DNA of 23,865 nucleotides, taken from a virus. A program made the translations under genes and the position numbers. This document shows, piece after piece, positions 12,872 through 23,865 of the stretch. The notes beneath the pieces are model-generated. The model was not told the DNA's origin and did not search any database. It saw only the letters and a program-made list of their open reading frames with translations. The DNA is taken from IMG/VR virus record IMGVR_UViG_3300027867_000044, positions 1 through 23,865 of that record; one strand, 5' to 3'. How positions within the stretch are numbered: position 1 is the first letter of the stretch; each line of letters starts with the position of its first letter.

Positions 12872-13915
12872 ATGGCAGGTCCGAATCCATCGGCAGCAAA
12901 CGTCGGAAACGTACTCACGGCACAAGCCATCGAGTTCGATTCCGAACTGATCCCGAACCTAAAGTCCAACACCAACGCCTTCATGCAGGCGGCGGTCAAG
13001 CGGGTGCAGGGCGAGGGAACAGGTATCAACCGCACGTTCTTCCAGTACGAGGAACTCGGCGCTCAACTCTTCCCCACAACGGATGGCGCGGTCGGCTCTC
13101 CGACATTCGTGGGCCAGATTTCACTTCCCGCGCAGGTCGGCGAGTGGAACAACTTCGGCAACTTCTCGGCAATGTCGGTCTATGCGGCAGTCGATGATGT
13201 GGTCGGCAACTCGGCTATCGAAGCGAGTTACCAGGTCGGCCAGACTATCAGCGAACTCTATGCCGAGGAACTCGATGCGGCATCGACAAGCGATTCGAAC
13301 GTCAACCAGTCCTCGCTTCTCTCTTCTCCCTACACGATGAACCTCCCGACCATTCGAACGATGAAACAGCAACTCGTTTCGATTGGCGTGCTTCCGCCTC
13401 CGGGACACGGCGGACGATTCTGCGGCCAGATCAGCCCGAACGTATTAGGCGATCTCTGGAACGGAACCACGGTCAACGCTTCGGCTATTGACTTCTGGAA
13501 GTACACGGCGGCAGGGCAGGAAATGTACGACAAGATGGCGGGCCAAGTCGATCAGAACTTGGAGATCGAGTTGCCCGGAACCGGAGTCGTGTTCTATCAG
13601 ACGCCTTTCGTACTGAAGACCGCGAGCTATCAGTCTGGCAGCCTGACCGCTTATCGGACCTACATCTGCGGCCACTATGCCCTGATCGGCGTGTGGCTGA
13701 ACGTCCCCGGCGACACGGAACTTGGAGACGGGAACTGGAAGACCATCGACTGCAAGGTTGTGAACGATGCGCCTTCCTCAGCCTACGATCCGGTTGCGAC
13801 TATCGGCTCGTGGTGGGCATGGAGATTTCATCAGACTGTGACCACTCCGCCTACTTACGGGACCGTGAACAGCCAGCGCGTCCGGTACGCGGACTCAGTA
13901 CCAGCCATTCAATGA
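12872..13915 (+). CDS. major capsid protein (347 aa)
   Basis: Starts at ATG 12872 behind AAAAGGAGAT, one of the best ribosome-binding sites in the window, fitting a highly made protein. Size, position after the scaffold and composition fit an HK97-fold coat protein. The N-terminal helix region (QAIEFDSELIPNLKSNTNAF) is followed by an extended loop-like part with INRTFFQYEELGAQLFP, then the core with Gly/Pro turns. No cleavage motif is obvious. Its stop overlaps the next start (ATGA). Confidence 0.85.
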   Translation: MAGPNPSAANVGNVLTAQAIEFDSELIPNLKSNTNAFMQAAVKRVQGEGTGINRTFFQYEELGAQLFPTTDGAVGSPTFVGQISLPAQVGEWNNFGNFSAMSVYAAVDDVVGNSAIEASYQVGQTISELYAEELDAASTSDSNVNQSSLLSSPYTMNLPTIRTMKQQLVSIGVLPPPGHGGRFCGQISPNVLGDLWNGTTVNASAIDFWKYTAAGQEMYDKMAGQVDQNLEIELPGTGVVFYQTPFVLKTASYQSGSLTAYRTYICGHYALIGVWLNVPGDTELGDGNWKTIDCKVVNDAPSSAYDPVATIGSWWAWRFHQTVTTPPTYGTVNSQRVRYADSVPAIQ

Positions 13916-20523: not shown

Positions 20524-20902
20524 GTTTCGAGCGGTCAAGGAATCGGACAAGGAAGAACTGGACACATGGATAGCCGCCGATCCGGGACACGCGGGAAGAG
20601 TGACTTCGGAGTTCTTCCTGACTCCTGGGAAATATCATTCGCTCTGCGCTGTCGAGGATGAGCAGGGAACTGTGATGTATCTACGACTCGAAGGCGAGAT
20701 GGACAACATGCGGGCGCACATCCAGTTCTGTTCGAATCGCAAGCGGATCATGAAGACCTTTCGGGAAGGCTTTCCATTCGTCATGGCCGATGCGCGTGCG
20801 CGAGGATTTAAGGCTGTGGTGTTCGATAGTTGTAGTCCGGCGCTTGTGCGGTGGATGATTTTCGAGTTTCATTTCCTCGCTGAAATGAAAGCGGTGCTGT
20901 AG
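20516..20902 (+). CDS. GNAT acetyltransferase-like phage protein (128 aa)
   Basis: GTG 20516 gives MAKFRAVKESDKEELDTWIA, the strand-helix opening of GNAT proteins. Strands SLCAVEDEQGTVMYLRLEGE and helix MADARARGFKAVVFDSCSPA follow the GNAT order, but the acetyl-CoA loop (Q/RxxGxG/A) is not evident. It may be a degenerate or non-catalytic member; similar small proteins appear among tail/internal-protein genes of other short-tailed phages. It ends in a TAGTG overlap with the next gene. Confidence 0.5.
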   Translation: MAKFRAVKESDKEELDTWIAADPGHAGRVTSEFFLTPGKYHSLCAVEDEQGTVMYLRLEGEMDNMRAHIQFCSNRKRIMKTFREGFPFVMADARARGFKAVVFDSCSPALVRWMIFEFHFLAEMKAVL

Positions 20903-21573
20903 TGTGCGGCCCGAGCCAAGCCGAACAGAATCTAGCCAATCAGCAGGCGGCATTCACTTCGACGCTTCAGCAGGACTATTCCCAGACATTCGCCCAGAAC
21001 CAGCAGATTCTCGGAGCGCTCAATAGTGTTCTTCAGCCGATTGTACTCGCGGGACCGAACCAGCAAGGCTTTAATCAGCAGGAGCTTTCGGCGCTCAATT
21101 CACAGGCGATCAATTCGAACGCGCAAGGGGTCCAGCAGGCAGAGACGGCAGCGGGCAAGCAGGAGAACGCGCTAGGAGGCGGAAAGTCTTTCCTGCCATC
21201 AGGCGTGAACGCGCAGATCAATGCCGGGATTGCTACCGCCGGAGAAGAGAATCTGTCGAACGCGGAACTCGGGATCACCGAAGCGAACTATGCGACTGGA
21301 CGGCAGAACTGGCAGAACGCGCTATCCGGGGAACAAGCTGTAGCCTCTGGACAGCAACCTCTCGGATATGCCAATGCGGGAATTAACTCCAACACAGCCG
21401 CTTTCAATGAGGCCAATACAGTCTCGACGCAAACGAATCAGGAGTGGTCAAACATTCTTGGGGACATCACTGGTGGCATTCTCGGCGGAACGGCGAACAT
21501 GGATACCGCAGGAACGTCCACTCCGACCGAACAGACTGGCAACATACTCACCGGAATTCTTAGCGGATTATAA
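20902..21573 (+). CDS. Gln/Asn-rich internal-virion-type protein (223 aa)
   Basis: GTG 20902 overlaps the previous TAG and gives MCGPSQAEQNLANQQAAFTS, a start resembling a class of podovirus internal or tail-associated proteins I have seen. The protein is very rich in Gln, Asn, Ala and Ser, largely helical, with a Gly/Ala-rich C-terminus (GDITGGILGGTANM) that could insert into membranes. It ends in a TAATG overlap with the larger protein. A part in the ejected internal core is inferred from composition and order. Confidence 0.62.
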   Translation: MCGPSQAEQNLANQQAAFTSTLQQDYSQTFAQNQQILGALNSVLQPIVLAGPNQQGFNQQELSALNSQAINSNAQGVQQAETAAGKQENALGGGKSFLPSGVNAQINAGIATAGEENLSNAELGITEANYATGRQNWQNALSGEQAVASGQQPLGYANAGINSNTAAFNEANTVSTQTNQEWSNILGDITGGILGGTANMDTAGTSTPTEQTGNILTGILSGL

Positions 21574-23459
21574 TGGCTGACTCAGCAAACGCGCTTTCAG
21601 GGATGTCCGACTCGCAAGAGCCGATGGAGACTCCGCAGGGCACCGGAGCACCTGGTACTGCTCCTCCGGCAATGCCGTCTCCGATTGATGCTCTGGCCGG
21701 AGACGTGGCCGGAAATGCGAAAGCCCTGTCAAACGCCAATCCGACGCCTCAGAAGCCCGGAGGGTGGGCGCGTGCGATCCTCGGCGGAGTCCAGAACGCT
21801 CTCGCCGGAATTCACAACAGCCCTGGCGGACTCTTCTACGAAGCCTCGGAAGGCGCACGTCAACAGCAACAGATTCAGAGGCAACAGAAGCAGCAGGCTT
21901 TCGAGAATCAGCAAAAGCAGCAGACCATGAGCCGGGAGGAAGCTATCGCTCGAGCGACCATTGCGCATGAGAATATCCAGACGCTCTATACCGGGCAACT
22001 CATGTCCCAGCTTTCCGACAAGAACCAGAAAGACCTCATTGAGACTGGTAAGCAGGCCGTTCAATCGCTTGTCGCGGCAAGAACTCCAATCATCCAACAA
22101 GACCTGACCGAAGCCGATGCCCAACGTCTCATCAAGGAAAAGAAACTCAGTCCAACGACTCAGCACGCTTATCCCACTGGGCAGATGGAAGACCCGACAG
22201 GCACGAAAGACCCTTCTGGCAATCCTCGACTCATAACGACGTGGACCGTTCTTGGTGATACGCCGGACATGCAACTGAGCGCCGAGGATGCCAAACTACT
22301 CGGCTATCCCGAAGGCACTACTATGAACGGGAGAACGTTCAATACGCTCTACACAGGGGCCATGAGCGCGCAAGCGGCTAGACTTCACACTCAGCAACTC
22401 TTCGATGAAGCGAATCTCGGGGCACTCAAAGCCTCTACGAATCTTGAAGTCCAGAAGTATGAAAAGGAATGGGGAGTTTCGCTCGGGAAGGCTTACGGGA
22501 ACTTGCTCGACGCGCAGAAAGATTTCACTGCCCGGTTTCCCGATCAAGCTGGTCTCGTTCCTGAATTCGCTGGCGGAACTGATAAGTTTACCGCTCTCGT
22601 GGATGCGCAGCAACGAGATTTACAGGGTACTGCCACTCTTCCAAAGAACGAAGAGGAGGCGGCGGCTCAGACCGTAGCACGGAAGCAGGCTTATGAGGCG
22701 CATCCGACGCCATCAAACAAGGCTCTCTATGATCGGGCTGTCGATATGCAGGCGAATATCCAGCAGGTCGTACAGCGAGAGCGGCAATTCACTTCGGACC
22801 TCCAAAGAACGAACAATGAAGCCCTGAAAGGCGTCCAGCAGGGCAATGAACTGGCAAAGAAGGGCTTCGATGACATCAACAAGGCATGGACAGACCCGCA
22901 CACTGGATTCAGTGGGGCGCTCATGCAAGCCCGTAACACGCTAAACGCGATTCAGGCCGGGGCCGATGGGAACGGCCTTTTGACTTCGATGGCTCCGACG
23001 ATGGAAGTCTTGGGGATCAATCATGCCGCTGGAATCAGCCGGATTAGTCCTCAAGAAGCTGCGGCTGCCAATCTCCCTGGAGGCTGGGCGGAACGTTGGA
23101 ATGCATGGGCCACGAAAGCGGCTACCGGAAAACTGAGTCCGCAACTTGCCACCGAAGGCAAGCAACTCATGAATCAGATCATCACGAGCAAGCACCAACA
23201 GAGCGTGCAAGATACGCGAATGCTCGCAGCGAATTCGAAGATTGATCCGGCCCAGATCACAGTTATGGACATCAATGGACAACCCGATACACTGGCCCAT
23301 CAGATTCGAATCGGCGTGATGCAGAATCCGCCCAAAACTCCAATTCCTCCTGGCAAGACTCGTGTTCTGGCTTCCGATAACACGTTCCACGATGTTCCGA
23401 ACGTCGATGCGGCAAAGAAGATTGATCCTAACCTGACGGTGATAGGAGTAGGAAAATAA
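21573..23459 (+). CDS. large internal-virion-type protein (628 aa)
   Basis: ATG 21573 shares one base with the previous TAA. After a Pro/Ala-rich N-terminus (about 1-85) comes a Gln tract (about 90-115; QQQQIQRQQKQQ) and long helices with coiled-coil texture to about 470. A C-terminal part ends in PGKTRVLASDNTFHDVPN. There is no catalytic motif I can name. It ends in an ATAA overlap with the following frame. Size and place match ejected core proteins of short-tailed phages. Confidence 0.68.
   Translation: MADSANALSGMSDSQEPMETPQGTGAPGTAPPAMPSPIDALAGDVAGNAKALSNANPTPQKPGGWARAILGGVQNALAGIHNSPGGLFYEASEGARQQQQIQRQQKQQAFENQQKQQTMSREEAIARATIAHENIQTLYTGQLMSQLSDKNQKDLIETGKQAVQSLVAARTPIIQQDLTEADAQRLIKEKKLSPTTQHAYPTGQMEDPTGTKDPSGNPRLITTWTVLGDTPDMQLSAEDAKLLGYPEGTTMNGRTFNTLYTGAMSAQAARLHTQQLFDEANLGALKASTNLEVQKYEKEWGVSLGKAYGNLLDAQKDFTARFPDQAGLVPEFAGGTDKFTALVDAQQRDLQGTATLPKNEEEAAAQTVARKQAYEAHPTPSNKALYDRAVDMQANIQQVVQRERQFTSDLQRTNNEALKGVQQGNELAKKGFDDINKAWTDPHTGFSGALMQARNTLNAIQAGADGNGLLTSMAPTMEVLGINHAAGISRISPQEAAAANLPGGWAERWNAWATKAATGKLSPQLATEGKQLMNQIITSKHQQSVQDTRMLAANSKIDPAQITVMDINGQPDTLAHQIRIGVMQNPPKTPIPPGKTRVLASDNTFHDVPNVDAAKKIDPNLTVIGVGK
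23444..23459 (+). promoter_or_regulatory. ribosome-binding site with ATAA stop/start junction
   Basis: AGGAG (23444-23448), seven bases, then ATAA in which TAA ends the 628-residue gene and ATA would start the next. AAAA before the stop would also permit tRNA-Lys to slip back one base. The distance fits ordinary initiation better than an SD-stimulated -1 slip. Confidence 0.5.
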
Positions 23460-23865
23460 GCACTACTCCGGTTGATTTCTCAAGCATTGGCGGCGATCCC
23501 GTTCCGGTCGATGCCTCTTCGCAGCCAGCGGTTGACTTCTCGGGCGTTGGTGGAACATCAGTATCCGGCGCGGCACCACAAGACCAGCAACAACAGGCTC
23601 CTCCGGCTCCGCCTGAAGGATATGCCGCTCACTATTTCAAGAGCGTCATCGACCAGACGAAACAGCAATGGGCGGCTACCGAGGCATGGCGCAAACAGGA
23701 AGAGGCTGTGGCTAAGAGCGTTTCCGATGCGGTGATGAAGCGAGACTTCGGGACGGCGGCTGAGATTCTGATTCCGCATCTTCTCAAAGGGGCTAATACC
23801 GCTGTAAATGCGGCTTACGCCGGAGCAACAGCACCAAATGATCCGAATAGGATGCTAGGCGCTCC
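23456..23865 (+). CDS. internal-virion-type protein, partial, with an apparent AUA start
   Basis: The frame runs open to the window end (136 codons). The first codon in coupled position is ATA at 23456, overlapping the previous TAA and seven bases after AGGAG (23444-23448). No ATG, GTG or TTG occurs between the in-frame TAA upstream (about 23429) and a GTG near 23709, although the coding character is clear from the start: PVDFSSIGG and AVDFSGVGG repeat, a Gln/Pro-rich linker, then helix YFKSVIDQTKQQWAATEAWR. Either AUA is used, a -1 slip on AAAA joins it to the gene before, or one base of ATGA was changed. Confidence 0.65.
   Translation, partial: MSTTPVDFSSIGGDPVPVDASSQPAVDFSGVGGTSVSGAAPQDQQQQAPPAPPEGYAAHYFKSVIDQTKQQWAATEAWRKQEEAVAKSVSDAVMKRDFGTAAEILIPHLLKGANTAVNAAYAGATAPNDPNRMLGA

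Follow-up and report, generated by a model that had tools for sequence, protein, structure and literature searches.

A late gene of a soil phage probably starts at an AUA codon in an ATAA overlap

Organization of the locus

The window, meaning the whole 23,865-nt stretch that was analysed, is IMG/VR virus record IMGVR_UViG_3300027867_000044 and comes from a soil phage. The features of the junction and its flanking genes described below lie on the plus strand. Its last complete genes are the C-G-P-S virion-cassette gene (20902..21573), which has a GTG start in a TAGTG overlap, and a gene for a 628-aa protein (21573..23459), a probable internal virion protein with a TAA stop codon at 23457-23459. 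The 628-aa protein shares 36 % identity over 401 aa with its counterpart in a related contig (L003:10695-12584). A second frame, two positions downstream of the C-G-P-S gene, is in the -1 frame relative to the 628-aa ORF and is open from 23432 to its last codon (23863). No ATG, GTG or TTG occurs in it from the upstream in-frame stop until the GTG at 23708..23710, which we reject as the gene start (see below). The proposed start codon, ATA (23456..23458), overlaps the TAA by 2 nt, as ATAA, and the downstream coding frame counted from it (23456..23863) contains 135 residues after the ATA before it is cut by the contig end. The junction therefore lies some 400 nt short of the contig end (407 nt remain after the site).

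A Shine-Dalgarno sequence, AGGAG (23444..23448), precedes the ATA with a 7-nt spacer. With a duplex energy of -9.0 kcal/mol, it ranks among the strongest sites at gene starts in the window; random positions give -3.9 +/- 2.5 kcal/mol. The preliminary description of this DNA had reported a frame without a canonical start, the ATAA overlap and the placement behind AGGAG, and the positions, codon scores and Shine-Dalgarno energy confirmed all three. It had also described almost every junction nearby as an ATGA-type overlap. About six junctions are of this type (6414, 7067, 9520, 9699, 11750 and 13912), but "almost every" was too strong; the junctions nearer the site read TAATTG, TGATG, TAGTG and TAATG. 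The term internal virion protein, also used there, follows from gene position, with no Pfam match and no significant PHROG match. By its position, the downstream gene looks like one for a structural protein.

Predicted folding placed the Shine-Dalgarno sequence in a hairpin, GGAGTAG-GAAAATAAGCA-CTACTCC (23445..23469), with a perfect 7-bp stem, an 11-nt loop and an energy of -9.3 kcal/mol. The stem pairs the Shine-Dalgarno sequence and the ATA sits in the loop in this single-sequence prediction. Compared with shuffled sequences the hairpin is unexceptional (z -0.8), and similar stems arise by chance about once per kb in the window.

The major capsid gene of the window (12872-13915) is continuous, whereas it is interrupted in many relatives. 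Among those compared (L034, L045, L050, L051, L055, L058, L059, L060, L063, L071 and L075), the interruptions fall at about residues 30, 94, 117, 204, 281-295 and 320. A LAGLIDADG-like frame (LAYLAALLDGEGYF) occurs in the inserts of both L045 and L050, and a weak group I intron match (E 0.0012) was obtained with one insert of L058. In L088, a large late-gene protein (L088:8870-12574) carries an FtsK gamma domain at residues 961-1009 (PF09397, E 2.9e-14).

Coding signal and N-terminus of the downstream gene

The downstream protein had no Pfam match, no significant PHROG match and no tblastn relative; since no tblastn relative was found, support for the frame comes from codon usage and from an N-terminal motif. 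Codon usage was trained on the other genes of the window, where known genes scored 0.32 +/- 0.11 and wrong frames about -0.36. Between 23459 and 23707, the log-odds per codon were +0.25 in the downstream frame and -0.22 and -0.43 in the other two frames. In the same frame, the 24 nt preceding the ATA scored -0.81, which is non-coding. Because the scores are positive after the ATA and negative before it, coding starts at the junction.

The motif is a duplication, STTPVDFSSIGGDPV / SQPAVDFSGVGGTSV (23459..23563), which begins at residue 2, the codon after the ATA, and was equalled in 7 of 500 shuffles. Such a duplication is a hallmark of the N-terminus of this gene in relatives, here taken as the phages that carry the neighbouring C-G-P-S gene. 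Their gene order is mostly kept: a GNAT-like gene, the C-G-P-S gene, a gene for a protein of ~550-970 aa and then the gene for the next protein, which in about 50 non-redundant relatives starts at ATG or GTG within ~60 nt of the upstream stop. The first 60 residues of that next protein generally hold a phage-specific duplicated motif, for example QWQVDSVTPT twice or YSTPIPQGATVGQ twice. In 15 of the 16 sequences tested the duplication beat nearly all shuffles, and it was weaker in L097 (28/500). The motif differs between phages while its two copies agree within a phage (relatives L087-L160, e.g. L118, L134 and L158). Because the duplicated motif of the window starts at the codon after the ATA, the true N-terminus lies at or beside the ATA.

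When homologous junctions were compared, the roughly 50 relatives all started this gene near the upstream stop, as a separate gene with ATG or GTG, and none started it far downstream. The unusual start is thus not conserved among them. When viral_contigs was scanned with the upstream protein, with the downstream frame and with two alignments, no relative that spans the junction with the downstream gene was found; the upstream protein was also used to scan genome_contigs, and no close relative of the junction emerged. The nearest contig (L002/L033; L033 is IMGVR_UViG_3300037852_000028) ends inside an 815-aa gene, before the site. An ATA is also present at the L003/L004 junction (ATAG), which we attribute to chance, as the downstream gene there has upstream ATGs and no Shine-Dalgarno sequence accompanies the ATA.

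AUU and AUC starts of the C-G-P-S gene

In the alignment of the C-G-P-S gene, the N-terminus C-G-x-S is invariant. The aligned start codon is ATG in most orthologues and GTG in the window and in L097. It is ATT in three divergent phages (L030/L090, L085/L088 and L091; positions L030:8001, L088:5998 and L091:5998) and ATC in L003/L004 (L095/L096; position L003:9937, and L004), where GGGGAG stands at 7 nt. Each of the three ATT phages has a Shine-Dalgarno-like site at the aligned ATT. The next canonical codon downstream in these phages is a TTG 20 codons in, and its use would remove the invariant N-terminus; L088 additionally has a TTG 57 nt upstream of the ATT. The ATC case is less certain, since a TTG 15 nt upstream could serve as the start, although it has no Shine-Dalgarno sequence (-2.7 vs -7.8 kcal/mol). 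In the ATT and ATC relatives, annotation limited to canonical starts would either shorten the C-G-P-S gene by about 20 residues or give it a false extension.

A maximum-likelihood tree was drawn for 47 C-G-P-S orthologues. The clade of the window comprises 13 rows (support 100/99) and contains all four ATT/ATC cases, with none among the other 34 rows. The clustering has p = 0.004 (hypergeometric, 715/178365), a value that serves as a guide only because the clade was chosen post hoc and the rows are related. On the tree, ATT needs two to three changes; therefore AUG and AUU have been exchanged. The proteins of the three ATT phages are ~57-72 % identical to one another and come from different metagenomes, so their ATT starts cannot share one sequencing error.

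We also scanned 1428 distinct ORFs from the window and related contigs, including the whole records of three relatives. Two credible non-canonical starts backed by a Shine-Dalgarno sequence were found, the AUA of the window and the AUU of L030, and no general relaxation of start codons was seen. An apparent ACG start of terL in L033 proved to be an alignment artefact, and this terL starts at GTG.

C-G-P-S orthologues are also present in Tunturiibacter phage Tunturi_3, a podovirus of an acidobacterium (PMC11924767), and in a contig of a Candidatus Sulfotelmatobacter MAG, which suggests that the hosts of these phages are probably Acidobacteriota. In Tunturi_3, the orthologue (C-G-A-S) likewise follows an annotated acetyltransferase gene and precedes large late genes, but it has an N-terminal extension, so that no unusual start is needed. 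In Acidobacteriota of the class of Sulfotelmatobacter, most infC genes with a readable start begin with AUC or AUU, preceded by GGAGG, and AUH initiation (AUU, AUC or AUA) is therefore physiological in that class. A phage-encoded initiator tRNA was considered and rejected as an explanation: the window yielded no tRNA, and the sole tRNA-Met of the AUU-start relatives G027 and G022 has a C1-G72 pair and is thus of the elongator type. These two relatives, of ~100 kb (G027, L161-L162; G022, L170-L171), have ~32 tRNA genes each for nearly all amino acids, including a 94-nt tRNA-Ile(UAU).

Initiation at the junction

A genuine AUA start of the downstream gene at 23456 is, in our judgement, the probable explanation of this junction. 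The site combines a strong Shine-Dalgarno sequence within the 5-9 nt expected of AUH starts (AGGAG at 7 nt) with an open coding frame that offers no ATG, GTG or TTG at the start position. Relatives of this phage have similarly unusual starts, AUU and AUC, in a gene close by, so the AUA probably reflects genuine biology rather than just a sequencing slip. Against this reading, the ATA at this gene is present in one genome only.

The strongest competing explanation, which we regard as possible but unlikely, is an error of sequencing or assembly or a minor variant, in which the population carries ATGA and the single A of the contig is wrong or rare. One G-to-A change would suffice, the stop remaining a stop either way, and an origin of ATAA from ATGA in this manner is plausible in itself. 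The ATG or GTG found at this gene in the ~50 relatives agrees with an error or variant, as does the position near the contig end, where assemblies are weaker, and a laboratory ATG>ATA start mutation of rpoS shows that such variants arise (PMC12864459). However, the assembly is clean where it can be compared, with no broken gene in the part that the window shares with the closely related L033, and no other such loss of a start codon was seen among the 1428 ORFs. Both the strong Shine-Dalgarno sequence and the fact that relatives show AUU and AUC starts in this cassette favour a real weak start.

A -1 ribosomal frameshift on A-AAA before the UAA, fusing the 628-aa protein to the downstream frame, had been offered in the preliminary description as an alternative and appears very unlikely. 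The frame relation is indeed -1, A-AAA precedes the stop and the hairpin lies over the site. Yet the sequence (A-GGA-AAA) is no X-XXY-YYZ heptamer, and the hairpin overlaps the site instead of following it by 5-9 nt, with no spaced structure downstream. The C-terminus of the 628-aa protein (...LTVIGVGK*) ends like those of relatives (e.g. ...GNIIGYR* and ...NLQVIPR*), which keep separate genes with their own ATG or GTG at or next to the stop, none of them fused; the arrangement therefore requires no -1 slip and no lost base.

Equally improbable is another near-cognate start, such as AAA at 23453 or ATT at 23486. Near-cognate starts beyond AUH exist, as in the GTC start of Streptomyces sigR given in the available text of PMC5472188, but the optimal 7-nt spacing is found at the ATA alone, and the ATT has no Shine-Dalgarno sequence and would cut into the first copy of the motif. 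A start at the GTG at 23708, the first canonical one, with the preceding stretch untranslated, is scarcely credible and is excluded by the coding signal and by the duplicated N-terminal motif shared with relatives, both of which begin right after the ATA within the preceding 250 nt.

In the proposed AUA initiation, AGGAG would hold the AUA in the P site of a 30S subunit or of a ribosome fresh from termination at the overlapping UAA. The initiator tRNA would start there with low efficiency, giving Met-Ser-Thr-Thr-Pro-Val-Asp-Phe. The 2-nt overlap places the start within the -8 to +6 nt of the upstream stop that characterize termination-reinitiation. By burying the Shine-Dalgarno sequence, the hairpin would prevent de novo initiation. 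Ribosomes reaching the end of the 628-aa gene would unfold it and re-initiate at the AUA after the UAA, so that the second protein may be produced in a low and constant proportion to the 628-aa protein. The hairpin thus hints that downstream synthesis depends on upstream translation, which is suggestive only; since the stem is a single-sequence prediction and about one such stem occurs per kb, this step is a putative one. We infer the use of AUA, the coupling, the role of the hairpin and the control of dosage.

Comparison with known systems

The preliminary description had called AUA starts rare and normally rejected. They are rare but not unprecedented: in Staphylococcus aureus, AUA starts of infC, ccpN and citZ were mapped by ribosome profiling behind strong Shine-Dalgarno sequences, and in ccpN and citZ reporters AUA gave ~10-30 % of the AUG level (PMC13009471). 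As a counterpoint, Hecht et al. (2017), cited in the available text of PMC12864459, put AUA in E. coli at no more than ~1 % of the AUG level. The AUU, AUC and AUA starts of infC, including those of acidobacteria and the AUA of S. aureus (PMC13009471), resemble the start in the window in standing behind a strong Shine-Dalgarno sequence and in having no canonical alternative. They differ in that infC serves IF3 autoregulation and conserves its odd start, whereas the window has a phage late gene with AUA in one genome. The ccpN and citZ genes share the AUA behind a strong Shine-Dalgarno sequence but are bacterial genes, with the start proven by ribosome profiling and reporters, while the AUA of the window is read from sequence.

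Termination-reinitiation pairs of the ATGA (-4 nt) type (PMC10666635) have the same geometry, and the window has A for G with the stop retained. These pairs use ATG or GTG, and the available text of PMC10666635 describes no ATAA pairs. In E. coli, a Shine-Dalgarno sequence promotes re-initiation and excess IF3 inhibits it (PMC2268962). In the E. coli rpoS ATG>ATA mutant, one G-to-A substitution in the start codon likewise leaves translation possible, with RpoS reduced up to 5-fold (PMC12864459), but the mutant arose in laboratory culture and has reduced function.

Implications for phage biology

A wider reading can be offered tentatively, as a possibility that we consider rather doubtful at present: this clade of soil phages, probably infecting Acidobacteriota, may use the IF3-discriminated starts AUU, AUC and AUA as dosage control in the late virion cassette. 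These starts would have been kept over long divergence and swapped with AUG and GUG, yielding sub-stoichiometric virion proteins sensitive to IF3. Phage gene callers accept only ATG, GTG and TTG, and genes with AUH starts are consequently truncated or lost. If proven, AUH starts of virion genes would mean that phages set the protein ratios of their particles through the penalty imposed by initiation proofreading, and they would offer natural sites at which to test the fidelity of IF3 in a phylum whose translation initiation has been little studied.
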